This document shows positions 1-50,438 of a stretch of DNA of 64,000 nt, piece by piece (the first letter of the stretch is position 1; each line of letters begins with the position of its first letter). Source of the DNA: Candidatus Bathyarchaeota archaeon A05DMB-5 (GTDB lineage Archaea; Thermoproteota; Bathyarchaeia; Bathyarchaeales; Bathycorpusculaceae); assembly GCA_019685655.1 (NCBI GenBank), contig JABFQP010000004.1:1-64000 (forward strand). Direction: 5' to 3'. The position numbers and the translations under genes are program-made. Under the pieces are notes generated by a model. The model was not told the DNA's origin. It searched no databases and worked only from the letters and a program-made list of their open reading frames with translations.

Positions 1-1000
<1,000 letters not shown>

Positions 1001-24530: not shown

Positions 24531-24535
24531 CAGCA

Positions 24536-24575: not shown

Positions 24576-24637
24576 TCCTTCTCTAAAGAGGGCATTAATT
24601 ATAACGCATTAGATTTTGAAGTATTGATTTTGCATAC

Positions 24638-24663
24638 TTATGTGTAGTTTTGTTCTACGCACA
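24638..24663 (+). promoter_or_regulatory. 26-nt inverted-repeat element (copy 2) upstream of the second pilin-like gene
   Basis: Same as the element at 23905-23930 except that the 7-base loop is TTTTGTT instead of CTCTGTT. It is followed closely by a T/A-rich stretch (ctatcttatcttat) that may be the TATA region, and lies about 70 bases before the ATG at 24733. Confidence 0.6.
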
Positions 24664-24732
24664 CTATCTTATCTTATTACAGAATGAAAAGGTTTTGATT
24701 GCACATGCAAGAGAGGAGGCTGTAAAAAATCA

Positions 24733-25560: not shown

Positions 25561-25563
25561 AAC

Positions 25564-26025
25564 TTGCCATCTATTACTCCAAGTTATCTTTACACGTTCG
25601 TTGCGTTAATAGCAATCAGCAGCATGCTGATTTTCTCGTTCATGGCATACGGTGACGCTTTACGCGCTCCATTAGAAGTGAAACAACTCAAAAATCTAAT
25701 GGGTTACGTAGCAGCAAAAGGCACAGAGCTATTAACGCTAGCATCTACAACAAACGCCACAACAGAAACATTCCTTCAAATGCCAACAAAAATAGGCGAT
25801 AGACAATACTGGCTTCGACTCCGCAACGACTCAGCTAAGACTTGGTTAGAAGGCGGGTTTGGAAACACGCCCACCGAAGGAAACGAGCTTCAAGTATCCC
25901 TTCCCAAAGAAGCGTTAGCAACAGGCTATTATAAGAGCGGCTACGACGCGGCTCATCTGGAATGCCGCATAAGCGATGGCATTTTGCAGCTCTTTCTTTC
26001 AAGCCAAAGCGAAGGTGATGTATAA
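25564..26025 (+). CDS. Single-helix secreted protein of the pilus operon
   Basis: 153 residues from TTG 25564, which has GAGGTG six bases before it. One N-terminal helix (LYTFVALIAISSMLIFSFMAYG) without a clear prepilin cleavage site, then an extracellular domain with an NAT sequon. Its stop is immediately followed by the ATG of the ATPase, so translation is coupled. Probably an accessory pilus component (inference from position). Confidence 0.65.
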   Translation: MPSITPSYLYTFVALIAISSMLIFSFMAYGDALRAPLEVKQLKNLMGYVAAKGTELLTLASTTNATTETFLQMPTKIGDRQYWLRLRNDSAKTWLEGGFGNTPTEGNELQVSLPKEALATGYYKSGYDAAHLECRISDGILQLFLSSQSEGDV

Positions 26026-27630
26026 ATGAAGTTTAACCTTAAACTACGTAAAAATGCATCTCAAAAAGAAGAATCCTTCCAAGAAATGATGAAAGAAGAA
26101 GGCGAAATAGTAGAATTTTTAGACGTGAAAAAATGGAGTATCCCAGAAGGCTACATAGAAGCAGAATATTACCCGCTTAAGCCGCCATTCTCTTACGCTG
26201 CAATCGTTCAAAACGAGGAAACTTTGGAATACCTTTACATTCTTGACGAACTTCCATTAACACGGGAAGAACGAGACGGCTATTTCAGGCTTAGAAACAT
26301 TCTAGAATATGAGCTTCAAGCTCCAGAGGCGGAAGAGACACTTAACGAATCTTTCAGACGACAAATGCCAATAATCCTCTCAAATCACCAGAAACAATTT
26401 GCTGGAATATCCCCAGTTGGGATGCGCAAGCTTCTCTATTATTTGGAAAGAGATGTGGTTGGCTATGGAAAAATAGACCCACTAATGTATGACGAGTACG
26501 TGGAAGACATCGGATGCGGAGGAGTTAGCAAACCAATTTTCTTGTGGCACAGAAAATACGAGAACATAAAAACTAACATAGTTTTCCGAGACGAACAAGA
26601 ACTTGACGACTTCGTGATGCGTGTAGTCCACAAAGCTGGAAAACACGTAAGCATAGCCTTCCCAATAGTTGACGTCACACTACCAGAAAAACACCGTTTA
26701 GCAATTTCTTTCGGAAAAGAAACAACACCATCAGGCACGTCATTCACCATAAGAAAGTTCCGCAAAGACCCATTCACAATAATTGACTTGATTGAGAACG
26801 AAACCATAAACGAGAGCATAGCCGCTTACCTATGGCTTCTGATGGAAAACAAAATGTCAGTTATGATTATCGGCGCCACGGGCGCTGGAAAAACAACAGC
26901 GCTAAACGCAGTTGCATGTCTCATACGTCCAAACCACAAAATAATTTCAGTAGAAGAAGTTGCAGAGATAAACCTGCCCCATGAAAACTGGACATCAAAC
27001 ATTGCCCGTTCAGGCTTCGGTGTTGAAGGCGAAGGCGAAATCACCTTATACGACCTAATCAAATCAGCCGTAAGACACCGTCCAGACTTGATTATTGTAG
27101 GCGAAATCCGCGGAGAAGAAGCCTACGTGCTGTTCCAAGCCCTTGCAACTGGACACGGTGGCTTATGCACATTACACGCTGAGGACGTTGACACTTCAAT
27201 CAAAAGGCTGACGCAACCGCCTATGAACATTCCGTCATCCATAATTCCGCTGATGAACTGCGTCATAAACGTAAAACACGTTAGAACACCAGTCTTCCTA
27301 GAATCTGGAAAACGTCTCTCAAGCAGAAAATTCATAAACATTTCAGAAATAAAAGACGCAAACACTTTCCAAGAAGTTTTCAGCTGGAACCCATCTTCGG
27401 ACACTTTCAACGAAAGACTAAACGAAAGTTACCTTCTGAAAAAGATGGCTGCAAGCCTGGACATTCCAATGGAACGATTAATAGACGAACTAGAATATCG
27501 CAAACGCGTAATCATGCACATGGTCGAGCATAACATTCGCGACTACAGAAGCGTCAACAAAGTCTTGAGCAAATACTATAACAATCCGCAGTTGTTCCAG
27601 AAAGAATTTTTAGAAAAGCCAAAGTGGTGA
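26026..27630 (+). CDS. Type IV pilus/archaellum-type assembly ATPase (GspE/ArlI family)
   Basis: 534 residues. The catalytic domain has Walker A GATGAGKTT near residue 283, an Asp-box region ISVEEVAEINLPHENW, Walker B LIIVGEIRGEEA and the His box ATGHGGLCTLHAED. These hexameric ATPases drive assembly of archaeal pili or archaella at the cytoplasmic face. The N-terminal 200 residues match the archaeal ArlI/secretion ATPase type. The neighbours, a TadC/ArlJ-like membrane protein and pilin-like proteins, support a pilus. No arlCDEFGH genes are present, so a dedicated archaellum is unlikely. Confidence 0.92.
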   Translation: MKFNLKLRKNASQKEESFQEMMKEEGEIVEFLDVKKWSIPEGYIEAEYYPLKPPFSYAAIVQNEETLEYLYILDELPLTREERDGYFRLRNILEYELQAPEAEETLNESFRRQMPIILSNHQKQFAGISPVGMRKLLYYLERDVVGYGKIDPLMYDEYVEDIGCGGVSKPIFLWHRKYENIKTNIVFRDEQELDDFVMRVVHKAGKHVSIAFPIVDVTLPEKHRLAISFGKETTPSGTSFTIRKFRKDPFTIIDLIENETINESIAAYLWLLMENKMSVMIIGATGAGKTTALNAVACLIRPNHKIISVEEVAEINLPHENWTSNIARSGFGVEGEGEITLYDLIKSAVRHRPDLIIVGEIRGEEAYVLFQALATGHGGLCTLHAEDVDTSIKRLTQPPMNIPSSIIPLMNCVINVKHVRTPVFLESGKRLSSRKFINISEIKDANTFQEVFSWNPSSDTFNERLNESYLLKKMAASLDIPMERLIDELEYRKRVIMHMVEHNIRDYRSVNKVLSKYYNNPQLFQKEFLEKPKW

Positions 27631-27635
27631 AAAAC

Positions 27636-29144
27636 TTGCAGACTCTAATTAAAAGACCAAAAATATTCGGTTGGTTGCTGAATCTTTACAGCAAAGAGAA
27701 CACAAGCGAACTTAACCGCGAATTACCTTTCGCTGCACTGCTATTCACTCTATTATCCGCCAGTGGAGTAACAATCTACGATAGCTGGAAAAAACTATGC
27801 AACGTGAACTTGTTGCCAAATTTTCAGAAAGAAGCCAAAGAAATTGTTAGACAAGTTGAAGTTCTGGGTTACGACCCCTTAACTGTAATGTATAAACGAG
27901 CACATAAAACGAAATCGAAAAGTTACCGTGAATTCTTGTTAGGCTATGTTTCGTCTGTGAGAAGCGGCGGAAGCGTTGTAAACTATTTAAAAAGCAAGTT
28001 GCGTTCAATATTCGAAGTTCAAAGCGCTTCTGCAATTCGTTCAATAGAGAGACTTGGCACCTTAGTAGAAGCCTACGCAGTAATGCTGATAGTCACATTG
28101 TGCTCCTACATACTTTTCATCGTCTTCGCAACAACTTCGGTGTTTGAACCCATGAAAATGAGTGGAACACCAGGCGTGTCTACAGAAATTGTCTGCGTTC
28201 TGATATTCTTTGTAACACCGATAATCTCAATAATTTTCATGATGATCGCGCATACGGAGAGAAAAAGCAACCTAGTGAATGTTAATCAGCCGTACTATGC
28301 GACTATAATACCGTTAATAGCGGTTTCCGCTTTTATAGCAGCACTATACTTCATGCCACAACTTGCATTCCTCACAAGTCCGGAAATATTTCCACTCGTC
28401 ACTACACTTTGTTTACTGGCAATTTCGTTACCTCCAACAATAGTCTACATGAGAATATCCAAGGTAAACAATGACGCTGAAAACTCGATGCCAAATTTCC
28501 TCAGAGACGTAACAGAAGCCAGAAAAATTGGGCTTTCACCAGAAAAAAGCATAATCCACGCAACAAAACGCTCTGGCTACGGCAAATTCTCTGAAACCCT
28601 AAGCCTAATAAGAAGTCAGATGGAATGGGGCGTGTCCTTGAGAAAAGTGTTCGTTAACATCAAAAGGAAAATTCAAACATGGCACGTGCTCGTAAACTTC
28701 TTGATACTTGTTGAGACAATCAAAATTGGCGGCGGTTCAGCAGCGGCGCTTGAAATATTGACTGATTATAGCGAAAAACAGAAGGACGTTGAAACTAACA
28801 AGAAGTCGCTTCTGAGACCTTACGTGATATTGGCGTTCATATGGAGCGTCCTCATAGCCTTAACAACAACGATGGTAGCAATGGCAGTCTACGCTTTGAC
28901 CAACATTTCACTTCCAGGTGCTACAGCATCAGTGCCGCTTGGAGTCATGCAGTTGCAAGTGAACCTTTTCTCCATTGGCATAATATTGCAGTGTTGGCTT
29001 TCAGGATTCTTTGTAGGTAAAGTGAACGAGGGCACATTTGCTGCGGGCTTCAAATATTCAGTAATGCTTGTAATTACGGCTTACGTTTCGCTTTTGCTTT
29101 CGCAGAATCTACTAGGCGGAATGTACAGCGCTGTCTCCGGTTAA
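27636..29144 (+). CDS. Type IV pilus membrane platform protein (TadC/ArlJ family)
   Basis: About 502 residues with two GspF/TadC-like repeats, each a cytoplasmic helical bundle followed by membrane helices: LPFAALLFTLLSASGVTIYDSW and later MPNFLRDVTEARKIGLSPEKSI. Some eight helices are predicted in total. It is the inner-membrane platform that works with the ATPase. The start is probably TTG 27636 with GGTGA just before it; GTG 27624/27627 are alternatives that overlap the ATPase end. Confidence 0.85.
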   Translation: MQTLIKRPKIFGWLLNLYSKENTSELNRELPFAALLFTLLSASGVTIYDSWKKLCNVNLLPNFQKEAKEIVRQVEVLGYDPLTVMYKRAHKTKSKSYREFLLGYVSSVRSGGSVVNYLKSKLRSIFEVQSASAIRSIERLGTLVEAYAVMLIVTLCSYILFIVFATTSVFEPMKMSGTPGVSTEIVCVLIFFVTPIISIIFMMIAHTERKSNLVNVNQPYYATIIPLIAVSAFIAALYFMPQLAFLTSPEIFPLVTTLCLLAISLPPTIVYMRISKVNNDAENSMPNFLRDVTEARKIGLSPEKSIIHATKRSGYGKFSETLSLIRSQMEWGVSLRKVFVNIKRKIQTWHVLVNFLILVETIKIGGGSAAALEILTDYSEKQKDVETNKKSLLRPYVILAFIWSVLIALTTTMVAMAVYALTNISLPGATASVPLGVMQLQVNLFSIGIILQCWLSGFFVGKVNEGTFAAGFKYSVMLVITAYVSLLLSQNLLGGMYSAVSG

Positions 29145-29159
29145 TAGAACAAAAATAAA

Positions 29160-30245
29160 TTGAGGATTGAAAAGAGAATGCCTGCGATTTCGATTGACAC
29201 GTTCTTTGCATGTTCGCTAATGGTTATTCTGGCGCTTTCAGCTATGGCTGGAACTTCAAAAATGTTGTATCCCTACATAAACAACGTGGGGGACCAGAAT
29301 ATTCGGGAAAGGTTCAGGGAAATCTCACGATATATACTTTTGAATGCGGGGACGCCATCAGATTGGGGACGAAATCCTCAGATGATGCCAGAAATATTTG
29401 GCTTAGCTAAAGCCAACGCAAAAGGCTCATATGAGTTAGATATAGACAAAGTTTCACGATTGAACAGTGAGAACCTTTATGCTTTTAGTTATGCGCAGAT
29501 ATTCACGGCTCTTAAAATGTCCGATGTGTCTTTTAAGATTGAGATAAAGCCAATCTTTGAAGTTTCTATTAACTTGACAGCGACTTTTAACGGGACTGAT
29601 GAGACTGTTTACCAGTTTGAGGTTTTGACTGAAGACCAAGGCGCCGCTGTTCAAGCGGATTTGAAGGGTTATGTGATTGCGAAAAATTATTTGGAAGCAA
29701 CCAACGTGTGTGCGTCTAATGGCAGAGCCAGCTTAAATGTAACTCTCTCAAACGCTGTGGAAGGACCAGCACTTTTCGTTGTTTTCGCCAAAGCCAAATG
29801 CGATAGTCAAATAGCGTCTTTCGGTGTATATGCTTTTGCGAACAACTCTTCAAAACCGAATTCTGAAGGCACTTTTCTTAGGCTTAGTCCTCTAAACTAT
29901 TTTTTGAATGCGTCATTTGTTTATCCAGAAACTGTTTTGTCAGACGCTTACGCCCTAACCTTTGATTATAACTCGACACTAACACAGATTGCAAGCGGCA
30001 ACCAATCTGCGACATTCCAAATTCCGCAATTTCGCGATTCAAGCCCAACAGTGCTCATCGTAACAGGACAGAATTTGACTGACTTCTTTGCGGAATGGGT
30101 TGCTTACCCACAAATTCCTCTTCAAATTGGTGCAAACTTTTCAAATTCGCTGGTTATCTCCAACGTTTTCGTTTACATATACACCGTCACAATAGATTCT
30201 GGGATTTACAAATGCACTTTTTGGCTTGGGGGTCCGAAAGAATGA
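29160..30245 (+). CDS. Single-helix secreted protein of the pilus operon
   Basis: 361 residues from TTG 29160 (or 355 from ATG 29178). After a short basic start comes one hydrophobic helix (TFFACSLMVILALSAMAG), then a long Ser/Thr/Asn-rich external domain with many N-glycosylation sequons. Its last bases overlap the next ATG (ATGA). No family recognised. It is likely a large minor pilin or tip-type protein. Confidence 0.65.
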   Translation: MRIEKRMPAISIDTFFACSLMVILALSAMAGTSKMLYPYINNVGDQNIRERFREISRYILLNAGTPSDWGRNPQMMPEIFGLAKANAKGSYELDIDKVSRLNSENLYAFSYAQIFTALKMSDVSFKIEIKPIFEVSINLTATFNGTDETVYQFEVLTEDQGAAVQADLKGYVIAKNYLEATNVCASNGRASLNVTLSNAVEGPALFVVFAKAKCDSQIASFGVYAFANNSSKPNSEGTFLRLSPLNYFLNASFVYPETVLSDAYALTFDYNSTLTQIASGNQSATFQIPQFRDSSPTVLIVTGQNLTDFFAEWVAYPQIPLQIGANFSNSLVISNVFVYIYTVTIDSGIYKCTFWLGGPKE

Positions 30246-30664
30246 GAAGCCAAAATAAGGGACAAATTAGAATAATCGAAGCTTTCTTGGCTGTGCTTAT
30301 AATCTTCTCTTCGTTTGCTGTTTCAGCAAATCTCACAACGATACGGAATACAACCAAACGTGATGATTTAAGCTATGCTGGATTGCAGGCGCTAATGAAG
30401 TTGGACTCTGATGGGAGCCTCGGAAAATACATAGATGACGGAAACTGGACTGCCTTGCGAGACACGCTTAACCTTGTTTTGCCAGCTGGGATATCATTTA
30501 ACTTGACAGTTTACAACTCACAGATGCAACAAGTTAATACAGCCGTCATCTCCAATGGCGCTTTCAACAGTCAAGAAATAGCTTTCGTAGAATACCTCTG
30601 TGTAAGCCAAGGGTTAGTTTTCAAATGTTACATAATTCATTTGCACTTGACGGTGGCTTCGTGA
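30242..30664 (+). CDS. Small pilin-like protein of the pilus operon
   Basis: 140 residues from ATG 30242, which overlaps the previous stop. The N-terminus MRSQNKGQIRIIEAFLAVLIIFSSFAV resembles prepilin-type helices, with a Glu after the basic segment as in bacterial pilins. The rest is a short external domain with NxT sequons (NLT, NWT). A frame running further upstream is open but lies inside the previous gene. The next gene starts one base after its stop codon. Confidence 0.65.
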   Translation: MRSQNKGQIRIIEAFLAVLIIFSSFAVSANLTTIRNTTKRDDLSYAGLQALMKLDSDGSLGKYIDDGNWTALRDTLNLVLPAGISFNLTVYNSQMQQVNTAVISNGAFNSQEIAFVEYLCVSQGLVFKCYIIHLHLTVAS

Positions 30665-30665
30665 A

Positions 30666-31436
30666 ATGAAAAGAAAAGACAGAAGATTTAGGTCAAACAG
30701 TTCGGCGCAGCTTCTCATAGTGGCAGCTCTGGCAATAGCCATACTCATCTCTGCAACTACGACTTACGTTTATGAGCTTGGCAAGGAAACAAACGGCACA
30801 TATAACTATCCAATCAGTGATTCCATTTTAGCCATAAAACAGACCACACGAAATGCACTGATAAGCTCTCTCGCGAACATTTCGAATGGTGGAGAAAAAA
30901 CGCTGCTGGTAACAAATCTAAATGAACTTTCACAGAGCTTGAGAAATCTAACACAGTTTGGAATTTGGCAATTGAGCTTCATTGTTCTCGATGATTCAAC
31001 ATATGATTCTGGTGTTTGGCTTTCGTGGGATACAAATGACGTAGGCGTTTCCAGTGCTTACACAGACTTCACATTAAGAGCCTATGATGTTGCAACGAAC
31101 TCCACTGTAAATTACGCTGTGAACGTGACGACCACTATCACTGTTAGTGGCTATTATATGGCTCTTGGGATAGAAAAAATGGTGAATCTAACCTGTAACA
31201 TGTATAATGAAGGCGAACCAGCTTTAGCCCAAAACATAACATTGTTTTATGAGAACCTTGGAATTTGGATGCCCATTGACTCATCAAACAATCTTTCTAT
31301 AACAGATTATGGTAACGGCACCTACGCAATATCTTTTAGAGTTGTAACACTCTCAGACACTGTGCAGGTTTCAACGCATTTGAAGGATTTACGAGGTATA
31401 TTTGTCCAAACAAACACGACATGTACAGAAAGATAA
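30666..31436 (+). CDS. Single-helix secreted protein of the pilus operon (last gene)
   Basis: 256 residues: a very basic start (MKRKDRRFRSNSSAQ) and one hydrophobic helix (LLIVAALAIAILISATTTYVYEL), then an external domain very rich in NxS/T sequons and beta-prone sequence. The stop lies 120 bases before TrmY. It completes an uninterrupted eight-gene run from 23979. Family not recognised; presumed pilus-associated. Confidence 0.65.
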   Translation: MKRKDRRFRSNSSAQLLIVAALAIAILISATTTYVYELGKETNGTYNYPISDSILAIKQTTRNALISSLANISNGGEKTLLVTNLNELSQSLRNLTQFGIWQLSFIVLDDSTYDSGVWLSWDTNDVGVSSAYTDFTLRAYDVATNSTVNYAVNVTTTITVSGYYMALGIEKMVNLTCNMYNEGEPALAQNITLFYENLGIWMPIDSSNNLSITDYGNGTYAISFRVVTLSDTVQVSTHLKDLRGIFVQTNTTCTER

Positions 31437-39322: not shown

Positions 39323-40855
39323 CTAAACTCTTGTTCTTAAGGCGTGCATAACGTCGCTTCTTGTTACGATTCCAAGCAATAAGTGCGTGTTATTTTTATC
39401 AACAACAAGTAACCGTCCGATGTTGTGTTTATTCATTTTTTCAAAAGCTTCCGCAAGGGAGTCTTCTGGAAAAGCTGTGATCAAATTTTTTGTGCAAATT
39501 TCTCCAAGAGAAACATTGTTTCGCTTTTGTTTAGCAACTTTCATAGCATCTTGCAAAGTGACAATTCCAGCGAGTTTATTGGATTCGTTTATTATTGGAA
39601 AGCCGATGTGGTGGTGTTCAGCTATTTTGTCGAAAAGTTCGTTAACCGTCATAGCTGGTGTCAGTGTCACGACATTTTTTGTCATTATTTGTTCTACTTT
39701 CATTTCTTGAAGCATGTTGATTTCGATGGCTGTGGGTTTTATGGAAAATTCTGTGGCTGAAGGGATCGGAAGCCCCTTCTTCTTCATAGTTTTAGTTTCT
39801 TGCATGGCATTTTTTCTTTTATGAGTGGATAAATTGATTAAGTGTGCTAATGTTTCTGGTTCGGTTTCTATTTCCTTTGTTGTTATGATGCCTTTTTCGA
39901 CAGCTAATTTTAAGAATTCTTCGCCTTTTTTAGTTCTGACAATTATTATAGACCAGTCTTTCAATGGTGCTGCTCCGCCAACACTTAAGTCTGCAAGCTC
40001 AGAGGTAAAGTCTGTGCATGTTTTACAGCGGTTCATGATATGAGGTTTGACTTCTGACAGTGGAATTCGAATTGTATGGTTCTCTGTCGTTACTACATAT
40101 TTGTCTTCTATCAAATCAACATTTTGAATTTCGCTAGCTGCAATGTTATGTTCTTGCAGAAGATACTCTAACAGTCGACCTAGCGAAAAGGTCCAGAGGC
40201 AAAAAAGCCCTATGGTTATTTCTAAACTGCCAATGAGTTTATGTTGCCAAGCTTCAAGTTTTCGAAGCGCGAGAACATGGCATGGAACGCCAACAAAAGC
40301 AATGTGGAATCTGCCGTGCTCAAAAACTGCACGACCGAAAGCCTCTGCCACCGCGCTGGGTACAACTTTTGAGTCTACGACAGAAAGTGTGTCATCTGGC
40401 ACGAGGCTTACTGAAGGCTTAACTTTTATGCTTAGCCTGGGAGATACTTTTGAAACTATAGCGCTGTCAATTATTTTTTGATTAATTGCAAAGTTAAGTA
40501 AGGCGTTTATGACGCCGCCGCTTTTTGTGGCTTCTCTTATTGTTGGATTGGTAGCGTGTGCAAGTAGAATTTTCCTATAATAGCCTAGGCTTTCTCTTCT
40601 GAAAGGCGCATCTACAACGAATCTTAACGTTTCGTATAAAAGTGCGTCGGTGTGTGGGCATATATCATAACAGATTGGACAAGTATCCAAGTGTTCAGAG
40701 CAATCATAAAGTCTGTTTGGTTTGTTTTCATCCACTTTTATCGCATGAATTGGACATGCAGCTTCACATGCACCGCATAGGGTGCAGAACTCCGGTTCTA
40801 TTATCAGCCGTTCTAAGTCATTGAAAGCTATGAGTTTATTCTTATTTGTTGGCAT
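39323..40855 (-). CDS. FrhB-like F420 hydrogenase/dehydrogenase beta subunit fused to a CBS-domain pair
   Basis: 510 residues in three parts. Residues about 20-70 carry ferredoxin-type cysteines (FCTLCGACEAACP, then CPICYDICP). Residues about 85-340 are the FrhB/FpoF-type F420-binding flavoprotein: ATKSGGVINALL, FVGVPCHVLALRKLEAW, NRCKTCTDFTSELADLSVGG. Residues about 387-508 are two CBS domains (VEQIMTKNVVTLTPAMTVNELF and GEICTKNLITAFPEDSLAEAF), which usually sense adenine nucleotides. It lies 67 bases after the N subunit of the hydrogenase/complex I-like operon, same strand. By analogy with FpoF it may feed electrons from F420H2, or take them to F420, with the CBS pair as an energy-charge switch (inference). 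Confidence 0.85.
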   Translation of the reverse strand: MPTNKNKLIAFNDLERLIIEPEFCTLCGACEAACPIHAIKVDENKPNRLYDCSEHLDTCPICYDICPHTDALLYETLRFVVDAPFRRESLGYYRKILLAHATNPTIREATKSGGVINALLNFAINQKIIDSAIVSKVSPRLSIKVKPSVSLVPDDTLSVVDSKVVPSAVAEAFGRAVFEHGRFHIAFVGVPCHVLALRKLEAWQHKLIGSLEITIGLFCLWTFSLGRLLEYLLQEHNIAASEIQNVDLIEDKYVVTTENHTIRIPLSEVKPHIMNRCKTCTDFTSELADLSVGGAAPLKDWSIIIVRTKKGEEFLKLAVEKGIITTKEIETEPETLAHLINLSTHKRKNAMQETKTMKKKGLPIPSATEFSIKPTAIEINMLQEMKVEQIMTKNVVTLTPAMTVNELFDKIAEHHHIGFPIINESNKLAGIVTLQDAMKVAKQKRNNVSLGEICTKNLITAFPEDSLAEAFEKMNKHNIGRLLVVDKNNTHLLLGIVTRSDVMHALRTRV

Positions 40856-40922
40856 GATTAAGCTCTCTGTTTATACTAGTGAAAGTTGTGATTAAAATAT
40901 CTGTAGTTGTTTTTGAAAGAAG

Positions 40923-42419
40923 TCATGGCACGAACGGAAGTTGCTGTATTACCGGGTTGATAAGGTCTAAAATGATTGTTGGATATAATCCTAAAACAAT
41001 TATTGCTGCAACAAGAATGAAAATTACTGCAAGGAGTTTTTTGGGCTCTTTAATTTTTGCTTCTTCTCGCGGTTTTTTCGCGTACATGTAATTGATTAAT
41101 CTCAACAAGTATGCAGCTTGAATTACGCTGGTTAAAACACCTATCACAGCTAACCAGCTTAGATTTGCCTCTATTGCAGATGTAAAAACTAAATATTTTG
41201 CAATAAAACCAGCGAGAGGTGGGACTCCTGCAAAAGAAAAGGCGGCGAAAAGTAATGCTAAACTTGTAAGCGGCATTTTTCTCCCTATCCCTGAAAAATC
41301 GTCTAAAGTCTCATATCCCATATTGTTTAAAATTCCAACAGTCATGAAGGCAAGCGCTGTGGTTATTCCTCCGATAAGGAAGAAGTAGAGGTTACCCACT
41401 ATTCCAAGCGATGTCACGCTGGTTATTGCTACAAGATTATAGCCTACATCTGCAATGCATATATTCGCTATTAAACGCTTAACGTTTTTTTCAGTTAACG
41501 CCAGCAAGTTACCCACTATCATTGTTAACGCAGACAAAACTGCAAGCATAAGGGTCCAAGGTAGGACTGTGGAAGGCGTCAAAATGTAGATGAGGACTCT
41601 TAGCAAAACATAGTAGCTTCCTTGATCGACAAGTGCTGACAAGAAGGCTGAAGAGGATGCTGGAGCTGCAGCGTAGGCGTCTGGCAACCACATATGGAAG
41701 GGCACGACAGCAGCCTCGATTGAGTAGCCTGCTACGATGAAAATGAAGGCTATTTCAAGTAGGTGCTTATCTTCAAGAGCCATTAACGCGTTTTTCACTG
41801 CCCAGAAGTTAAGTGTGCCCGTGAGAGCGTAGACTATTGAAAGTCCATAGATTATGAAGGCTGAAGCAATTATTATCATGATCAAGTATTTTATGGTGGC
41901 ATGCAAAGACCTAGATGTTTTCCGATATAGCATTAGGAAGCTTGAGCCTGCTGCTGTGGCTTCCCAAAAAATAAAGAGTGTTAAGAGGTCGCCAGCGAAC
42001 GCTGTTCCTATTACGCAGCCGATGATTATTAGTATAATTGAATAGTAGCGTTCTGAAAGTTTTTCATCAGAATTTATGTAAAAAAGGCTGTACATGAAAA
42101 CCATGGCGCCGACTATTGTGAAGATTATTGCCATGTAAATCGATACTGCGTCTACTAGGAATGTTGTTGAAAACATGGCGAACGGTTCATCGGTTAATGT
42201 TAAGTTAAGGAATGGTTGAGGCGGTGGTTGCGCATAATATTTCAATGCCAGATTTGCTACGCTTATGACTGCAATAATGAATATCGCTGAGAACCAGCCA
42301 AGCATGAGAGTAGTTTTTCCAGTTTTTCTTTTGCGAACAGTTTTAACTACTGGTATTGTTAGAAGCGAAAACACGACGAAAACAATTATGGGTGAAGATA
42401 TGTCCAAGATTTCTATCAT
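40923..42419 (-). CDS. Complex I-like antiporter subunit N (NuoN/HyfF type)
   Basis: 498 residues, about fourteen membrane helices of the Mrp-antiporter fold. Conserved parts are the lysine/glutamate channel features and the broken-helix motif VPFHMWLPDAYAAAPASSSAFLSAL, followed by GSYYVLLR. It is a proton-translocating subunit. Third and last of three antiporter-like subunits (L, M, N order), 12 bases after M. Start ATG 42419. Confidence 0.9.
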   Translation of the reverse strand: MIEILDISSPIIVFVVFSLLTIPVVKTVRKRKTGKTTLMLGWFSAIFIIAVISVANLALKYYAQPPPQPFLNLTLTDEPFAMFSTTFLVDAVSIYMAIIFTIVGAMVFMYSLFYINSDEKLSERYYSIILIIIGCVIGTAFAGDLLTLFIFWEATAAGSSFLMLYRKTSRSLHATIKYLIMIIIASAFIIYGLSIVYALTGTLNFWAVKNALMALEDKHLLEIAFIFIVAGYSIEAAVVPFHMWLPDAYAAAPASSSAFLSALVDQGSYYVLLRVLIYILTPSTVLPWTLMLAVLSALTMIVGNLLALTEKNVKRLIANICIADVGYNLVAITSVTSLGIVGNLYFFLIGGITTALAFMTVGILNNMGYETLDDFSGIGRKMPLTSLALLFAAFSFAGVPPLAGFIAKYLVFTSAIEANLSWLAVIGVLTSVIQAAYLLRLINYMYAKKPREEAKIKEPKKLLAVIFILVAAIIVLGLYPTIILDLINPVIQQLPFVP

Positions 42420-42431
42420 TGGCTTGCCTCG

Positions 42432-43919
42432 CTAAATGAAGGTCACGCTCGTGATGAGTTGTATGAAAAATGTCGGCCATATGCCAAGAACGATGACGAA
42501 TGCCGTCAAAATAATCATGGCTAATTTCATAAAGAATGGAACGTCTGTTATTTTTTCATGTTTTGCTGAGCCGAGAAAAACGTGACCTACGAATCTTAGG
42601 GCGTAGGCTAGGGATAAAACTGTGGCTATTAGCATTAGTGCTGTTGGTATAAGGTAGAAGTTGTCGTTGTTGATTGTTTGGAATGCTCCCACAAAGATTA
42701 GAAATTCGCTGATGAAACATGCGAATGGTGGTATTCCAGCGATGCTTAATGCTGCAGTGGTTGAAGATGTAGCTGTGATTGGCATTTGCCCAGCAAGTCC
42801 ACCCATTTCGCGAATGTCTCGAATTTCGAGTTGCTTCATAACTGCTCCAGCTGACAAAAAGAGCAAGCCTTTGCTTACCGCGTGATTTATCAAATGTAAG
42901 ACTGTTCCAGTTATGGCTTCTTGGAATGGAAAAAGAGAAAGCCCGAAGAGAACGTAGCCCATGTGTGCTATGCTCGAATACGCGATTATTCGTTTTATGT
43001 CTGTTTCCACCAAAGCGATTAATGAGCCGAAGAAGGCGGATAAAATTCCGAAAATCGTTAGTCCGTGCAGGAAAAGGCTTCCGAAGTCTGTTGCCATGAC
43101 GGCTGGAAAAACTGTTCCCAATGATACACGGAGTATTGCGTAAGCGCCGGCGCTGATTATGACTCCGCTTAGAAGTGCAGACATTGGCGCTGGGGCTTCA
43201 GAGTGTGCGTCTGGCAACCACATGTGAACTGGAACAGCAGCCATTTTAACTGCAAAGCCTGCTGTGAGAGACAGTAAAATCCATTTTACAAGTTCTGGAT
43301 TAGCAGTCATTAGTGCGGTTTGTGCTTGAAACATGTCTAAGTCTCCTGTAACCATGAATATTGCGCCTATGCCTAAGAGGACGAAGACTGCGCCTGCGTG
43401 TGTGAATATGAAGAATTTGAAGGCGGCTCTGTATGGTTCTCTGTAGCCCCATCCGCCTATTATGAAGTAGGTTGGGACGAGCATTAGTTCCCAGCAGAAG
43501 TAGAAGAGCATGAGGTTTGATGTGATGAAGACGCCGACGAGACCTATGGAGAGTAATGTTAAAAGAGCATAGTATTCAGCGAGTCCTTTTCTTTCTTGCA
43601 TGTAATTTATCGAGAAAAGCGTGGCTGTTAAAATGAGTATTAGGGTTATGATTGCCATTGAGAAACTGATTCCGTCAACAAAAAGCGTGAAAGAAGAGTG
43701 GAGAACGGGAATCCAATAGTAAGATTCGACATATTTGTGGTCTGCGCCGTTGAGAATGGATGGCACGGTTGTAGAAAGCACTGCTATGTTGATTATGCAT
43801 ATTAAAGCAACCAGGAAGGCGGCTGTTTTGGAAGATTTTCTACCTAACAAATAAACGAATGGAACAGCCAAAGTTGGTAGAAGCAGTGTTAATAAAAGTG
43901 TGTTTTCCATTTGCTTCAC
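42432..43919 (-). CDS. Complex I-like antiporter subunit M (NuoM type)
   Basis: 495 residues, about fourteen membrane helices. The proton-channel signature VPVHMWLPDAHSEAPAPMSALLSGVIIS with downstream AYAILR, the glutamate-bearing YFCWELMLVPTYFIIG, and IAYSSIAHMGYVLFGL are typical of NuoM. Its start (ATG 43919) overlaps the stop of L by 4 bases, so the two are translationally coupled. Confidence 0.92.
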   Translation of the reverse strand: MKQMENTLLLTLLLPTLAVPFVYLLGRKSSKTAAFLVALICIINIAVLSTTVPSILNGADHKYVESYYWIPVLHSSFTLFVDGISFSMAIITLILILTATLFSINYMQERKGLAEYYALLTLLSIGLVGVFITSNLMLFYFCWELMLVPTYFIIGGWGYREPYRAAFKFFIFTHAGAVFVLLGIGAIFMVTGDLDMFQAQTALMTANPELVKWILLSLTAGFAVKMAAVPVHMWLPDAHSEAPAPMSALLSGVIISAGAYAILRVSLGTVFPAVMATDFGSLFLHGLTIFGILSAFFGSLIALVETDIKRIIAYSSIAHMGYVLFGLSLFPFQEAITGTVLHLINHAVSKGLLFLSAGAVMKQLEIRDIREMGGLAGQMPITATSSTTAALSIAGIPPFACFISEFLIFVGAFQTINNDNFYLIPTALMLIATVLSLAYALRFVGHVFLGSAKHEKITDVPFFMKLAMIILTAFVIVLGIWPTFFIQLITSVTFI

Positions 43920-45868
43920 CTAAGCATAGTGATTATTATTAGTATTAGAATTATTAAAAACCCAATGAGTGCAGCTGCTATGTAATGTTGTAGGGAGCCT
44001 GAACGCATTCTTTTAATTTTTGATGCCGAAGCCAAAGTCTTGTTCGTAGCCATGTAGAGTAATTCATCGGCAAAAATGTCTAAATACTTTTGAGTGTTAT
44101 GAGCCAAACTCATTACTTCACTTGCAACAAGATACGGTAGACGGTTAAAGAAAGTTGTTTCAACCCGCTTAAGACCAACAGAAATTAGTAAGACACTTCG
44201 TGCAACAACTTTTTCATAAAAAGTATCAAAGAAATAGCCATGCTCCAAAATTAAGATCAGAGGAGTCAACAGTTTACCTTTGATTTTTTCTATACTCTCT
44301 GATTTCTTGTAGTAAGTTATGTAAATGGGGAAACCTCCTGCAAAAAGAATTAGAAGAAAAATAAGAGTTGCTGAACTGAAAACTTCGCTTAGTCCCATTT
44401 CTACACCTACATGCATGAAATTACCTATCAAAGGTCCTAGAAAACCCCAAGCGAAGCACAAAACCGCGAGTATCCCAGATGCGAAAAGCATTGTTTTCGG
44501 CGGTTCATGTAGGTGAGTTTTCTTTACATGTTCAGATGGTTCACGCAGAAAAGTTAGGATGATAAAACGCAAAGTATATGCAAAAGTGACCGCTGTGGAC
44601 GCATAAATTGTAAGCACAAGTAAAACATCTCCTGTTGACCAGAGACTGCTTATAATGAAGCCCTTACTGAAGAAACTTGCAAATGGGGGCACACCAGTCC
44701 GAGCCAGCATGACAACTATGCAGAGCAAAAACGTGATTGGCATGGCTTTCCTCAGTCCGCCCATCTGACGCATATCGCGGGTTCCTAACATATGAATGAT
44801 GCCGCCAATCGTAAGGAAACCTAAGCCTTGAAAGAAAGCATGACTTAACATATGAAATAAACCAGCAAACCAGCCTAGCGAAGAAGGAGACGAGGCAGCA
44901 CCCAATGCGGCAATCATAAATCCTATCTGACTGATGGTTGAATAAGCAGGCACTCCTTTTATGTCAGGCGTATACAAAGCCAAAGTAGCCCCAATGAACG
45001 CAGTAATAGCACCGATCCAAGCAACACAAGATAACCATAATGGGATTAAAGTTATCACTGAGCCAAAAAGTATGAACAACCTAGCAATCAAGTAAACACC
45101 AGCCTTCACCATTGTTGCTCCATGCAAGAGGGCGCTAACCGAAGTTGGAGCCTCCATTGCAGTATAGAGCCAAGTGTGCAAAGGTAGCTGGGCTGATTTC
45201 GCGATTGCTCCTCCAAGCATTAGAAAGGCAACCGCAGTCAACATTGGTAAAGGTACAGTCCTAATGTTTTTAATAGTGTAGGAGAAAGAAAAAGAGCCTA
45301 AACTTGTGTAGAGAAGGGCAATCGCGGCTAACAAGCAGACATCACCTATACGGGTCATCAGAAAAACTTTCACTCCTGCGCGAACTGATTCGGGGCGTCG
45401 ATACCAGAAAGAAACCAGTGAATAAGAGCAAAGCCCTACCATTTCCCAGAAAATGAACATCTGAAGAAAATTATCTGACATGACAAGACCTATCATCGAA
45501 CCCATGAAAAGAAGCATGAAAAAGTAGTAACGGGTCAAGTTTTCTTCACCAGCCATATAGCCTATAGAATATATGATAACTACAAAACTGAAGAAAGCAA
45601 CTAAATTCGCAAATAGGACACTGAGCGAATCGACGAATACGCCTGCATCGATGCTCATGGAAGGAATCCATGGAAAAACCATGTCTGGACTCGCTAAAGC
45701 GCCAAAATAAACGTCAGGAACCATAGAAAATGCAAATATCGTAGCAACTAGGCTCACTGTTACTGCAAAATATTCTCTTGCTTTTCCGCCTAGCCGCGCA
45801 ATTATTGGAATAAACAGGCTAGAAATGGTTGGAACTATCCAAACAAGCCATGGTGCATAAGGAAGCAA
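43916..45868 (-). CDS. Complex I-like antiporter subunit L (NuoL type)
   Basis: 650 residues, the length of NuoL with its extra C-terminal segments including the long lateral-helix region. Signatures: MFIFWEMVGLCSYSLVSFWY, LPLHTWLYTAMEAPTSVSALLHGATMVKAGVYLI and STISQIGFMIAALG. It begins with TTG 45868 directly after the K stop. A long antiporter subunit of this type is a feature of complex I and Fpo rather than of the smaller Ech hydrogenases. Confidence 0.92.
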   Translation of the reverse strand: MLPYAPWLVWIVPTISSLFIPIIARLGGKAREYFAVTVSLVATIFAFSMVPDVYFGALASPDMVFPWIPSMSIDAGVFVDSLSVLFANLVAFFSFVVIIYSIGYMAGEENLTRYYFFMLLFMGSMIGLVMSDNFLQMFIFWEMVGLCSYSLVSFWYRRPESVRAGVKVFLMTRIGDVCLLAAIALLYTSLGSFSFSYTIKNIRTVPLPMLTAVAFLMLGGAIAKSAQLPLHTWLYTAMEAPTSVSALLHGATMVKAGVYLIARLFILFGSVITLIPLWLSCVAWIGAITAFIGATLALYTPDIKGVPAYSTISQIGFMIAALGAASSPSSLGWFAGLFHMLSHAFFQGLGFLTIGGIIHMLGTRDMRQMGGLRKAMPITFLLCIVVMLARTGVPPFASFFSKGFIISSLWSTGDVLLVLTIYASTAVTFAYTLRFIILTFLREPSEHVKKTHLHEPPKTMLFASGILAVLCFAWGFLGPLIGNFMHVGVEMGLSEVFSSATLIFLLILFAGGFPIYITYYKKSESIEKIKGKLLTPLILILEHGYFFDTFYEKVVARSVLLISVGLKRVETTFFNRLPYLVASEVMSLAHNTQKYLDIFADELLYMATNKTLASASKIKRMRSGSLQHYIAAALIGFLIILILIIITMLR

Positions 45869-46216
45869 TTACTCATCACCCTTACTGATTTCGCTATCAT
45901 CTTTTTCCTCATTTTCAATTGTTTTATTTTGTTCTATTTCTGTTAGCTTTCTGATGTCGCATGTTCCATACTTCTTAGAAGCGATAACAAGCAAACCCAA
46001 GACAATAGCAGTAACACAAGTGTCGGTGGAAAAAGCAAGTATCAAAAACGTTTCACCTAAAGCTCTATCCAACGAAGAAGCAAGCAAAACAAAATTCATC
46101 GAAGCCGCCACTGCAATCAATTCAATCGATATTAACACTTTTACCAATTGACGCCTAGTCAAAAGACCGTAAATACCAACTGCAAGCAATGTAACTGAAA
46201 GAATTATGTAATCCAT
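45869..46216 (-). CDS. Complex I-like subunit K (NuoK/MrpC type)
   Basis: 115 residues: three membrane helices, with KVLISIELIAVAASMNFVLLA carrying the conserved membrane Glu. The third helix has an Asp-Thr pair (FSTDTCVTAIVLGLL) where NuoK usually has Ala-Glu. A charged 30-residue C-terminal tail is extra. Its start overlaps the J stop by one base. Confidence 0.88.
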   Translation of the reverse strand: MDYIILSVTLLAVGIYGLLTRRQLVKVLISIELIAVAASMNFVLLASSLDRALGETFLILAFSTDTCVTAIVLGLLVIASKKYGTCDIRKLTEIEQNKTIENEEKDDSEISKGDE

Positions 46217-46680
46217 CAGCGTTCACCCTCCTTTCTTTCATAAAGAACTATCGCAATGCCCAAAGCAACAGTCATTATGACTAAACCCTGCAGAACAACG
46301 TCTATTGCTCTCAAATCCCAAATAGCTTGCCCAAACGAAACACTCGAAGAAACATTAGCCGGCATAACTGCAACAGACAATAAAACTGATGGAAGCGACA
46401 ACACCAAGGCAACTACAGCAACCAGAGACAGGTTTTTAAACGACTTTTTCTTGCTTGGCTTTTCGCTGAGCATTTCACCAGACAAGAAAAGAACCGCCAA
46501 AGTCCCAGCACCAACAGCTAACTGAAAAACAGCTACAAAAGTGGCATCACTTAAAGCGTACAAAATCGCCATCAAAACAAACACACAAGCCAAAGAAGCA
46601 ACAGAATAAACTGCCTCATCAAGATAGATTGCCAAACAAGCCGAAACAACCAAACCCACCGCAATCAATTCAACAATCAT
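46216..46680 (-). CDS. Complex I-like subunit J (NuoJ type)
   Basis: 154 residues, five membrane helices, with the family block LYALSDATFVAVFQLAVGAGTLAVLFLSGEML corresponding to the NuoJ pi-bulge helix that couples the quinone/proton path. It lies between I and K in canonical order. Start ATG 46680. Confidence 0.88.
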   Translation of the reverse strand: MIVELIAVGLVVSACLAIYLDEAVYSVASLACVFVLMAILYALSDATFVAVFQLAVGAGTLAVLFLSGEMLSEKPSKKKSFKNLSLVAVVALVLSLPSVLLSVAVMPANVSSSVSFGQAIWDLRAIDVVLQGLVIMTVALGIAIVLYERKEGER

Positions 46681-46683: not shown

Positions 46684-47058
46684 CTACGCACCGCCAACCT
46701 TACCCGAATCTGTTTGAGGCTTTACCACCAAGTCAGATTTATCAGTTGAGGCAAGCTCAAAAATTTCCGAACTTTTAATCGCACTCCTAGGACAGCTTTC
46801 AGCACATTGATAACAGAAAACACAAAGATCCAAGTGAAACAACGGCCTCTTCTTCCCATCCACATCAACCATCTCAATAGCCTTTGCAGGGCAATCCCTA
46901 GCGCACAAGCCACAACTAACACAGAGACTTATATCAAACACGTGTTTGCCACGGAAGCCAACAGGAACTTTCGGCTTCACTTCTGGATATTTCCGTGTAG
47001 CTGGTTTTTTAAAAACATGAGAAAACACTTCCCTCAACATTGGCGACAACTTAACCAT
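46684..47058 (-). CDS. Complex I-like subunit I (2x[4Fe-4S] NuoI/HyfH type)
   Basis: About 124 residues with two cluster motifs, CVSCGLCARDCPAKAIEM and CVFCYQCAESCPRSAIK, carrying electrons between the catalytic B/CD pair and the outer donor. I place the start at ATG 47058, after a strong GAGGTGA eight bases ahead; the frame opens at ATG 47091, but that would overlap H. The C-terminus extends about 30 residues past the last cluster. Confidence 0.92.
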   Translation of the reverse strand: MVKLSPMLREVFSHVFKKPATRKYPEVKPKVPVGFRGKHVFDISLCVSCGLCARDCPAKAIEMVDVDGKKRPLFHLDLCVFCYQCAESCPRSAIKSSEIFELASTDKSDLVVKPQTDSGKVGGA

Positions 47059-47066
47059 CTGTCTCT

Positions 47067-48059
47067 TCACCTCATTAATGGATTGAACCACAAGCCCAAG
47101 GCAACTGTTACAGCAAGGGATAATAGCGACAGAGGCAACAACACTTTCCAGTTGGCAACCAACACTTGATCAATGCGCAACCTTGCAAACACACACGTCA
47201 AATATTCACTAATCACAATCACCACTAGAAGTTTAAGCACAAACCATAAAGCATACCAAAACATAGGCAAACCGAAAAATACAGGTCCATAAGGACCACC
47301 CAAAAATAGCTCAACGGCAATGGCTGCGCCTAGAACGATTTGCACATCCTTAGAAAGCTTCAAGAAAGCTAACTTTCTGCCAGTATATTCTGTCTCGTAG
47401 CCTCCAACAATCTCAGTTTCAGCATGTGGGACATCAAACGGGTCTTTCTCCAATTCTGCCTGAAGAGTAAGGATAAACAATGCAAAAACCCATGGAATTA
47501 AAAGGGCAAATGGAACATTTTGACTCAAAGCTATAGCTGAAATGCTAAGATTGCCCGTTAGAAATGCCGGAGCTAACGCAAGAATGAAAAGAGGTATGTC
47601 ATAACCAAGAAACTGTGTCAAAACCCTGGTTGCGCCCACTGCACTGTAGGGGTTTGTTGAAGACCATCCAGAAAGAAAAAGGAAAAAGTTAGCAATAGAC
47701 ACCAATGTTAGGACAAGAATTAGGTCTCCTTCAAAATTTGAATTTGGGATAACGTTTGCTCCATCAACTGGCAAAAAGAGAAAAGCAAAAACGAAAATTG
47801 AAAAAGAAAGAATAGGCGCAAGCCTGAACACAACATTTCTGGTATTAAATGGAATTATGTCCTCCTTTGTCAACAACTTGACGAAATCAGCCAGAGGTTG
47901 AAGAACACCTGCTGGACCAGTATAAGTAGGTCCCATTCTGTTTTGCATCCGAGCTTCTATTTTTCTTTCAACCCAGTCACAAAACATAGTAAACAACAAA
48001 ATAAAGGCAAAGCCAGGAAAGACCAACACGCGAAAAACAAATTCTGGATTTAGGCTCAT
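47067..48059 (-). CDS. Complex I-like subunit H (NuoH/HyfC type)
   Basis: 330 residues, eight membrane helices. ERKIEARMQNRMGPTYTGPAGVLQPLADFVKLLTKED, read in pieces, and AELEKDPFDVPHAETEIVGGYETEYTG hold the conserved acidic residues of the E-channel, where the catalytic arm meets the membrane. This subunit is shared by complex I, Fpo and group 4 hydrogenases. Start ATG 48059. Confidence 0.93.
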   Translation of the reverse strand: MSLNPEFVFRVLVFPGFAFILLFTMFCDWVERKIEARMQNRMGPTYTGPAGVLQPLADFVKLLTKEDIIPFNTRNVVFRLAPILSFSIFVFAFLFLPVDGANVIPNSNFEGDLILVLTLVSIANFFLFLSGWSSTNPYSAVGATRVLTQFLGYDIPLFILALAPAFLTGNLSISAIALSQNVPFALLIPWVFALFILTLQAELEKDPFDVPHAETEIVGGYETEYTGRKLAFLKLSKDVQIVLGAAIAVELFLGGPYGPVFFGLPMFWYALWFVLKLLVVIVISEYLTCVFARLRIDQVLVANWKVLLPLSLLSLAVTVALGLWFNPLMR

Positions 48060-48069: not shown

Positions 48070-49657
48070 CTATCTATCCGTGCAAGAGAAGCAAGGGTCT
48101 AAACTAACGAAACTTGCTGGCACATCCGCTATGTTGCCGCCTTCTGCAATTCGAACAAAAGAAAGAATATTGGCAAAAGTTGGAGTACGCACTTTCACAC
48201 GTTCTGGATATGCTGTCCCATTGCTTTTCACATAGTAAAACAATTCACCTCTCGGCGCTTCAACACGACTAATCGCCTCGCCAATTGGCACGATTCTTGG
48301 CACTCTAACTCTGTAAGGTCCACTCGGCAAATTGTCCAAAACATAATTTATTATGTTTATGCTTTCACTAATTTCATCCAAGCGAACCATAAGCCTCGCC
48401 CAAGAATCCCCTTCATCGTAAGTCACTATGTTAAATGGGATTTCACTATAAGCCGCATAGGGTTCATCCTTTCTAACATCCATTTTCACGCCAGAACCCC
48501 CGAGCAACTGGACCAACAACACATAGTTTCAAAGCATCTTGTTTACTCAGCACTCCAACATTTTTAGTTCTCATCTTAAAAGTCGGATCGTTCTCAAAAA
48601 TACGCTTGTAAAAGCCCATTTTTTCCTTCAAGTTCATCAATTCTGTTTTAATCTTTGGAACAGTCTCCTCTTGTAAGTCTCGCCTTACGCCACCTATTGT
48701 TATGAATGAGGCAATGACTCTGTTGCCAGTAAGCCACTCCACAATGTCCATCACTGGTTCACGGTCACGCCACATGTACTGAAACAAAGTCTCATACCCA
48801 ATCTCTAATCCAGCATGACCTAAAAGAAGCATATGACTATGAATTCGGTTCAATTCCAAAATTAATGTTCGCAGATAATTGGCTCTCGGCGGCACGCTCA
48901 CACCTAATATAGCTTCCACTGCCTGACAAAAGCATGCCGCGTGGCAAGCGTTGCAGATTCCACAGATTCTTTCAACCAAATAGATATCTTGCAGGTAAGT
49001 GCGCTTTTCCGCGGCTTTCTCAATTCCTCGATGGACATAACCAATGCGAGGCTCAACCTCTTTCACATTTTCTCCATCAACTTTTAAAGAAAACTTCTCT
49101 GGCTCTATCAAAGCAGGATGCTGAGGACCCACTATAATATTTATCAACTTCCCATCGTTCGAGAGCTGCCCTTCGCCAGAAGAAACATTAGCATTTTCCA
49201 TTCTGTTTGGAACAAAAACCTCAGCATCCTTCCTAAGTGGAAAAAGATTTTTCGGCCAATCATCCGGCAAGACTAATCTCTTGAGGTTTGGATGTCCTTC
49301 AAACTTTACGCCAAATAAATCAGCCACTTCTCTTTCATGAAAATTCGCACCTGGAATCAAATCTGTTATGCTCTTGATCTCCGCATCTTCTTTAGGCACT
49401 TCTGTCCTAATCGTAATTATGGTTCCACGACTACGGATATGGTACATCAGCTCAATAGTCTTCCCCAAATCCACACCTGTAAGCGCCGATAAACCAGCAT
49501 TTTCATCTGCCTCAAGCAAAGCTTTTAATGCATCTTTATGAAACTTAGCGTCAACGCGAACAAAGGCTCTGCCAGGCTGTAGAGTCCCAATTTGAAGGAT
49601 TTTCTCTCCAAGCTTATTGCTGAGCAGAACAGCCACGTCATTTTCAACGTTTGTCAC
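48070..49657 (-). CDS. Fused NuoC-NuoD / [NiFe]-hydrogenase large subunit, with a one-base frameshift at 48497-48501
   Basis: The N-terminal ~140 residues are NuoC-like (FHEREVADLFGVKFEGHPNLKRL). The rest is NuoD/hydrogenase large subunit. Nickel-ligand motifs are intact: ERICGICNACH near residue 230 (Cys232, Cys235, His239) and DPCFSCTDR at the very end. NuoD of true complex I lacks these, so this looks like a catalytic [NiFe] hydrogenase of the HycE/HyfG fusion type. No C-terminal extension follows DPCFSCTDR; the gene stops there, as in CooH and EchE, so protease maturation is probably not needed. The reading frame breaks in a run of five G (minus strand) after VVGPVARG; four G would restore VVGPVARGSGVKMDVRKDEPY. 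Start GTG 49657. Confidence 0.88.
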
Positions 49658-50090
49658 TTGTTTTCGCCTCGATTGATTTAAGCAGCTTTACGATTCCGTC
49701 AATCATCGCTTCAGGTTTCGGTGGACACCCGGGAATGTAGACGTTAACTGGAATAACCTTGTCAACACCTCCCAGCACATTATAGTTTCCTTCAAACACG
49801 CCACCTGAACAAGCACAGGCGCCTATTGCGACGACAAATTTTGGTTCAGGCATCTGTTCATAAATACGCTTTAGCCTACCAGCACATTGCCTCGTGACTA
49901 CACCAGTAGTTAATAGAACGTCCGCATGCCTTGGCGAAGGCTCAAGCAAGATTCCAAAGCGTTCCACATCATATTTAGGCGTTAAAAGCGCAACAACCTC
50001 AATATCGCAGCCGTTGCACGCTCCAGAGTTGAAATGAAGAACCCAAGGTGATTTCAACCTCGCCCATTTTAAAAGACGAGCAGAAGACAT
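49644..50090 (-). CDS. [NiFe]-hydrogenase small subunit / NuoB homologue with hydrogenase-type cluster motif
   Basis: 148 residues. FNSGACNGCDIEVVALLTPKYDVERFGI near residue 25 is the small-subunit proximal-cluster motif of HycG/HyfI/MbhJ type (CxxC at 25 and 28); NuoB of complex I has adjacent cysteines (CC) here. The remaining ligands are in GACACSGGVFEG and IPGCPPKPE. Together with the intact nickel site of the CD subunit this supports real H2 chemistry. The stop overlaps the start of CD by 14 bases. Start ATG 50090 adjoins the A subunit stop. Confidence 0.9.
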   Translation of the reverse strand: MSSARLLKWARLKSPWVLHFNSGACNGCDIEVVALLTPKYDVERFGILLEPSPRHADVLLTTGVVTRQCAGRLKRIYEQMPEPKFVVAIGACACSGGVFEGNYNVLGGVDKVIPVNVYIPGCPPKPEAMIDGIVKLLKSIEAKTSDKR

Positions 50091-50438
50091 TATTGATCGC
50101 CCCCTTCAAAAAGAAGGAAACTCGATATAAGCACCATGCTCAGGTAAAGCATGAATAAAAACACGCTCGTTATTTGAAGTTTTAAGGAAGCAAAAGCAAC
50201 CAGCAAAATCGAGGAATCCAAAACTACAAAATATATGAGATACTTATAAAGTGACACATTAATTCTCAATTTGCAGAAAGTTGCCTTTTCTCCACACGCA
50301 TACGTGGATTCACCTTTCCCGTCTCGCGCAGATTTTGCTGACAACCAACGACCAAACATGTAAACAAGAAAAGATGCAACCAGTATTAAAAAGAAAGCAG
50401 TAACTAACTCAACAAGCGTAGCAGGTCACCGTCACCAC
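50090..50438 (-). CDS. Complex I-like subunit A (NuoA type), 5' end probably frameshifted
   Basis: From ATG 50359 the frame gives 89 residues, but the family needs a first helix. One lies directly upstream in frame (ELVTAFFLILVASFLVYMFGRWLSAKSARDG, read in pieces) without a standard start codon after the TGA near 50428-50430. GTG codons at 50427-50438, preceded by GGAG, start a different frame; a one-base change near 50410-50418 would join them. Aligned features: the TM1 loop, TYACG for the YECG-type motif, KLRINVSLYKYLIYFVVLDSSIL for the NuoA second helix (the usual Glu is missing), and a third helix. A NuoA subunit in a hydrogenase operon is unusual. Confidence 0.65.

Follow-up and report, generated by a model that had tools for sequence, protein, structure and literature searches.

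What does a protein that joins a ferredoxin part, an FrhB-type flavoprotein and a pair of CBS domains do at the end of a hydrogenase operon? The gene for such a protein, which we call F-CBS, lies on the minus strand at 39323..40855 of the window, the 64,000-nucleotide stretch of a Bathyarchaeia contig that we analysed. Our best explanation assigns F-CBS to the neighboring hydrogenase as its peripheral redox subunit, with F420 as its most likely carrier, net flow toward F420, and a CBS pair that binds nucleotide and sets activity. We give this reading about an even chance. The analysis establishes gene and domain anatomy, linkage to and co-occurrence with the hydrogenase, and the cofactor cysteines, and it predicts the folds; docking to subunit I, F420 as substrate, the direction of flow and the role of the CBS pair are inferred. 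Counted against it are a changed F420-contact loop, missed family cut-offs, unlinked copies, hydrogenase genomes that lack F-CBS, rows with histidine at position 192 and four relatives without a CBS pair.

The open reading frame runs from 40855 to 39323, begins with ATG and encodes 510 amino acids with zero internal stops; the corresponding frame of the plus strand has 25 stops over the same span. Pfam, NCBIfam and an AlphaFold model together define its parts, all on the minus strand. The ferredoxin part (residues 1-85; 40601..40855) has a Fer4 match above cut-off at residues 18-40 and eight cysteines (C24, C27, C30, C34, C52, C59, C62 and C66). It is followed by an FrhB-type FAD/[4Fe-4S] domain (residues 86-350; 39806..40600), which matches FrhB_FdhB_N (PF04422) at residues 97-171 with 33.3 bits against a cut-off of 22 and FrhB_FdhB_C (PF04432) at residues 185-331 with 128.2 bits against 23.3. 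Both scores exceed the gathering score and place the protein in the FrhB/FdhB superfamily, and C192, C219, C277 and C280 correspond in alignment to the cluster ligands 104, 134, 192 and 195 of FrhB. A linker of low conservation (residues 351-384; 39704..39805) leads to the CBS pair (residues 385-508; 39332..39703), where PF00571 matches two stretches with 107.3 bits against a cut-off of 24. The ferredoxin and FrhB-cluster cysteines are conserved almost throughout the 51 rows of the family alignment, some of which begin at the preceding stop rather than at a chosen start codon. The exception is C192, which is replaced by histidine in five rows (L055, L057, L066, L108 and L007). A PADLOC match to BrxP (17.6 bits, residues 11-97) we consider to be due to chance or to the cysteine clusters.

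The AlphaFold model, built from an alignment (A2) of 39 of the 51 rows, has a pLDDT of 76 and a pTM of 0.76; residues 136-168 fall below a pLDDT of 50, and the CBS pair is the most confident part. This predicted structure matches 8riu_B, the F420-reducing zeta subunit of an ethanotroph's CODH (Z 37.5, rmsd 2.5 over 329 residues), and 8rja_E, its formylmethanofuran-dehydrogenase counterpart (Z 33.6). FrhB follows at Z about 27-28 (28.4 for 6qii_B), and the plant enzyme HCAR at Z 26.0. For the C-terminal part the matches are CBS pairs, at Z about 17-19, and many of these structures contain AMP, ADP, ATP or SAM as ligand. The first-pass annotation had described ferredoxin-like cysteines, an FrhB core and two C-terminal CBS domains in one protein, 67 bases behind subunit N on the same strand. 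The Pfam search that it proposed bears out this architecture, and the placement is exact: the N gene ends at 40923, leaving a gap at 40856-40922. Its pairing of an FrhB-type reductase with a nucleotide-type CBS pair likewise stands as a matter of fold, both in Pfam and in the predicted-structure matches.

CBS pairs often bind AMP, ADP, ATP or SAM. The threonine and aspartate typical of ligand binding are kept in CBS2 of F-CBS, where T498 and D501 occur in all 48 rows that have letters at these positions. In CBS1, T433 is kept in 47 of 49 rows, and position 436 is D in 27 and E in 20 of the 49. Since these nucleotide-binding residues are kept, gating by adenylates through the CBS pair is plausible as judged from the sequence. 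The best sequence matches of this part are the CBS pairs of MJ0922, AcuB, MJ0100 and the A. fulgidus site-2 protease, which also fold like the F-CBS tail (Z 17-18.8); to our knowledge, none of them forms a fusion with such a redox enzyme.

Could the CBS pair act only in dimerization or assembly, without ligand gating? It would then stand in place of the C-terminal dimer extension that PMC11493965 describes at the same position (residues 350-370) of the CODH zeta subunit. The CBS part is also less conserved than the FrhB part (mean pairwise identity 46% and 57%, with 33% in the linker), and the pair is lost or absent in four members of the same clade, G066-G069. However, an assembly module does not readily account for ligand-type residues that are invariant in CBS2, and we consider this alternative possible but leaning toward unlikely.

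Which hydrogenase does the gene adjoin? The window operon is an Fpo-like [NiFe] hydrogenase of the kind named Hfo by Loh et al. 2021, an 11-subunit complex of Bathyarchaeia whose large subunit is placed in HydDB subgroup 4g in the account given in PMC7886697. Read along the minus strand, it comprises A (50090..50359), B (49644..50090), CD in two parts (48473..49657 and 48070..48522), H (47067..48059), I, a dicluster ferredoxin (46684..47091), J (46216..46680), K (45869..46216), L (43916..45868), M (42432..43919) and N (40923..42419). This order, A-B-CD-H-I-J-K-L-M-N, corresponds to the eleven Fpo-type subunits of Hfo with C and D fused. Subunit A, which the first-pass annotation had left unnamed, matches PF00507 with 26.4 bits against a cut-off of 23.3. 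The first part of CD carries the L1 motif RICGICNACH and the second the L2 motif DPCFSC, and both motifs are also present in relatives. Because the large subunit retains both [NiFe] motifs, the complex is a hydrogenase of the Hfo kind and not a respiratory Fpo.

In this assembly the two parts of CD are separated by a frameshift at 48473-48522, near a run of five G, and align one after the other to the 49-kDa profile; the CD frame is open in the same-genus genome G119. Elsewhere in the window, the genes at 23958-31436 resemble a cluster for a type IV pilus or an archaellum; they include one for a secretion ATPase (PF00437; 26026-27627) and encode several small proteins whose N-termini are hydrophobic.

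We surveyed 256 Bathyarchaeia genomes with the whole F-CBS protein as query. The family is set apart by a score gap, as full-length FrhB paralogs score below 200 bits and match only the region before the CBS pair. It was found at 49 places in 48 genomes, and 44 copies in 43 genomes are full-length or nearly so and five are partial. The CBS part is present at 48 of the 49 places; at the remaining one (G164) the contig ends within the gene. The number of full-length or nearly full-length copies leads us to reject an assembly artefact or chance fusion.

F-CBS is linked to Hfo-type genes at most of these places. With the subunits around each copy assigned by phmmer using the window's proteins, 33 of the 49 places adjoin Hfo-type genes, 13 are unlinked and three are undecidable because the contig ends beside the gene (G174, G216 and G151). 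The linked copies occupy three positions: behind N at 15 places (the window, G119, G141, G140, G133, G114, G146, G161, G064, G196, G042, G051, G052, G050 and G120), behind I at nine (G197, G198, G195, G039, G147, G163, G162, G160 and G164) and before A-B-CD at nine (G139, G150, G084, G089, G097, G099, G077, G075 and G086). G147 is counted as behind I though no I was labelled there, and its F-CBS follows H. The earlier proposal that the protein belongs with the hydrogenase is upheld by these counts, and we reject the opposite view, that the fusion occurs mostly away from hydrogenases. In three of the operons (L051 of G133 at 948-3892, L048 and L052), K and L are separated by genes for a CLC-type channel and, in reverse orientation, an ArsB-type transporter; the frame of K extends into the CLC gene of G133, giving a single 526-aa open reading frame.

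F-CBS and Hfo also co-occur across genomes. A strict Hfo threshold of at least 600 bits for CD is passed by 54 of the 256 genomes, and F-CBS is present in 34 of these against 14 of the other 202 (Fisher p 1.6e-17, with relatedness left uncorrected). Moreover, in eight of those 14 genomes below the strict score F-CBS adjoins split C/D genes. The other 20 strict-Hfo genomes have no F-CBS, and it is therefore optional to the complex.

Genomes with a divided complex indicate where in it F-CBS belongs. In genus g49 (G160, G162, G163 and G164), the cluster order is B, C, D, I, F-CBS, and D and I are too close to accommodate H between them. In each of the four genomes the cluster adjoins an NUBPL-type ATPase gene and hypD, hypC, hypF and HypE-like genes, and in three also hypA (uncalled in G160); the HypE-like assignment rests on context and on an AIR-synthase fold. 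In G162 and G163 the hydrogenase is spread over two loci, with B-C-D-I-F-CBS at one and A, H, J, K, L and N on another contig (L064, L065, L131 and L132). No H was found in G160 and G164, which are 79% and 72% complete. When the two arms are encoded apart, F-CBS thus accompanies the hydrophilic one, which carries the electrons (B, C, D, I). This co-segregation, together with linkage and co-occurrence, makes a peripheral redox subunit the most likely role for F-CBS.

We also looked for CBS-bearing members beyond the class. A sample of 398 genomes of the phylum, class members included, gave one extra member, G310, from another class of Thermoproteota, where F-CBS lies behind N. An Asgard (Baldrarchaeota) locus, L007, has F-CBS behind the end of D, and its genome (G579) is the only CBS-bearing one among 227 of the Asgard phylum. 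L007 came from a non-exhaustive contig scan with six short patterns, whose remaining loci were mostly the same records as the surveyed genomes.

We placed these copies in a tree of the F part, made by a quick method with SH-aLRT support only and rooted on distant paralogs. Trimming to the F part was possible for 64 of 65 rows, and 61 entered after three below 250 aa were dropped. Copies behind N occur on several branches, those behind I form one clade, and the unlinked copies group with the before-A set. G310 stands with G042 and G196 both here and in a tree of the M subunit (22 rows), the pattern that joint movement of the whole cassette would produce.

The unlinked copies raise another alternative, that F-CBS works on its own as a soluble ferredoxin:F420 oxidoreductase that shares a ferredoxin pool with Hfo and is no stable subunit of it. 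Such a role is proposed for Archaeoglobus FqoF in a passage of PMC10667645. The 13 unlinked places (G129, G126, G073, G072, G127, G131, G130, a second copy in G084, G118, G128, G142, G094 and G122) would suit a soluble enzyme, although in 11 of these 13 genomes the Hfo large subunit has a match at another place, at E <= 1e-45. The exceptions are G073 (89% complete) and G122, and both [NiFe] motifs are present in all ten large-subunit loci fetched from the 11. The strict-Hfo genomes without F-CBS would fit as well. A free-standing enzyme is harder to reconcile with linkage in three positions and with segregation alongside B-C-D-I in two-locus complexes. Moreover, the unlinked copies nest near linked ones in the tree, so unlinking looks derived. 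We consider a separate soluble enzyme unlikely.

Two further features of the unlinked copies deserve mention. An aconitase gene directly follows F-CBS on the same strand at eight of the 13 (L072, L074, L077, L078, L081, L082, L086 and L087). G122 (L092) has a remnant in which the second half of F-CBS comes immediately after subunit A, a layout that a deletion of B to N would produce.

Is F420 the carrier? FpoF and FrhB use F420. For F-CBS it is a plausible substrate and, by fold and context rather than by sequence membership, the most likely one. The cofactor should be available, since the F420 ligase family (PF01996) is found in 247 of the 256 genomes, including that of the window; for the same reason the ligase (CofE family) is useless as a discriminating marker. 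The family cut-offs point the other way. F-CBS is not an FpoF in the strict sense: it scores 96.4 bits against 475 and 101.3 against 444 for the FpoF equivalogs NF040616 and NF006808, and 150.9 against 331.5 for the FrhB equivalog TIGR03289.

The loop that contacts F420 is also changed. In FrhB as described in PMC3591093, the F420 ring adjoins S209-V210, within the longest conserved stretch. This loop reads GSVGSPDGWS in the alignable F420 reductases 3zfs, 9r51, 6qgr and 6qii of the PDB, with the variants GSVGSPPGWS in 8rja and GSIGSEEGWN in 8riu. F-CBS has GGAAPLKDWS in the window and GGAxPLxDWS or close to it in the family and its CBS-less sisters, and P297 is invariant in all 39 rows of A2. 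F-CBS also lacks the KGK loop. We dropped this as proof against F420, since the loop is also missing from 8rja_E, an F420 reductase, and the GSVG-type loop is the better argument.

F-CBS could accordingly be an FrhB-fold flavoprotein with an acceptor other than F420, as in the plant chlorophyll enzyme HCAR. The family-wide loop change and the strong fold match to HCAR would agree with this, as would the class's other FrhB paralogs, five of six compared keeping an IKGK-type loop. One of these is the other FrhB paralog of the window's genome (G000:C2:206745-209554), which has no CBS pair, keeps the KGK loop and lies about 1.1 kb from a divergent F420 ligase gene (cofE); comparable neighbors occur in further genomes. 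However, the better fold matches are FrhB and the F420-reducing 8riu_B and 8rja_E (Z 27-37.5), the KGK loop is absent from 8rja_E as well, and the cluster cysteines of F-CBS are conserved. We judge a different acceptor to be as improbable as a separate soluble enzyme.

How would electrons move if F-CBS is an Hfo subunit that uses F420? F-CBS would most likely dock near subunit I. The electron path would join the [NiFe] site of CD, the clusters of B and I and the two [4Fe-4S] clusters of the ferredoxin part. It would also include the FrhB-type [4Fe-4S] cluster and FAD, and at the flavin a two-electron carrier, most likely F420. The potential of H2 is near -414 mV. PMC10667645 gives F420 at -340 mV and ferredoxin at -420 mV. 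These values favor F420 as the acceptor of electrons from H2 or ferredoxin. The net direction is probably from H2 (or reduced ferredoxin) to F420, which would be coupled to the ion-pumping membrane/antiporter arm and would supply F420H2. The C-terminal CBS pair may bind an adenine nucleotide (or SAM) and set activity, docking or dimer state. Taken furthest, Hfo would be an ion-pumping [NiFe] hydrogenase with an adenylate (or SAM) sensor on its electron arm, in which energy charge switches the balancing of H2, ferredoxin and F420, and would be F420-linked, not purely ferredoxin-linked. This extended picture is tentative, and we think it rather unlikely as a whole.

These observations bear on a gap in published accounts. 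FpoFO is missing from Bathyarchaeial Fpo-like complexes as PMC7886697 and PMC8407382 present them, and Loh et al. call the source of F420H2 unclear. PMC11697101 mentions one genome in which an FpoF is encoded at a distance from the Fpo genes; that protein may belong to the F-CBS family or be its paralog. F-CBS is a concrete candidate for the missing H2-ferredoxin-F420 link in abundant sediment archaea, and its built-in CBS pair, if regulatory, would be an unusual direct control over an energy-converting hydrogenase. A literature search of openly licensed PMC papers found no description of an FrhB-CBS fusion, in agreement with the earlier impression that none had been described in such an operon. 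Our data suggest that F-CBS is an FpoF-like arm with a regulatory tail on a complex I-like hydrogenase, an input or output arm unreported in earlier surveys, and that this arm may respond to the cell's energy state.

How does F-CBS compare with known systems? FpoF and FqoF partner with a complex I-like enzyme. F-CBS has their ferredoxin and FrhB layout (outlined in PMC3591093), and differs in scoring below the FpoF cut-off, in its CBS pair and in its changed F420 loop. FrhB of the F420-reducing hydrogenase, from the same source, shares the four cluster cysteines and the fold, but has neither a ferredoxin part nor CBS domains, and F-CBS falls below its cut-off. The CODH zeta subunit of Ethanoperedens (8riu_B), as depicted in PMC11493965, likewise combines a two-cluster ferredoxin part with an F420-reductase domain; unlike F-CBS, it is without a CBS pair, serves CODH and keeps the GSIGS loop. 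Finally, the Hfo of Loh et al. shares with the window operon the subunits A, B, CD and H-N, the L1 and L2 motifs and the archaeal class. That complex is described there without FpoFO, whereas in the window and at 32 other places it is adjoined by an FpoF-like protein with a CBS pair, which is no FpoF equivalog and whose use of F420 is putative.
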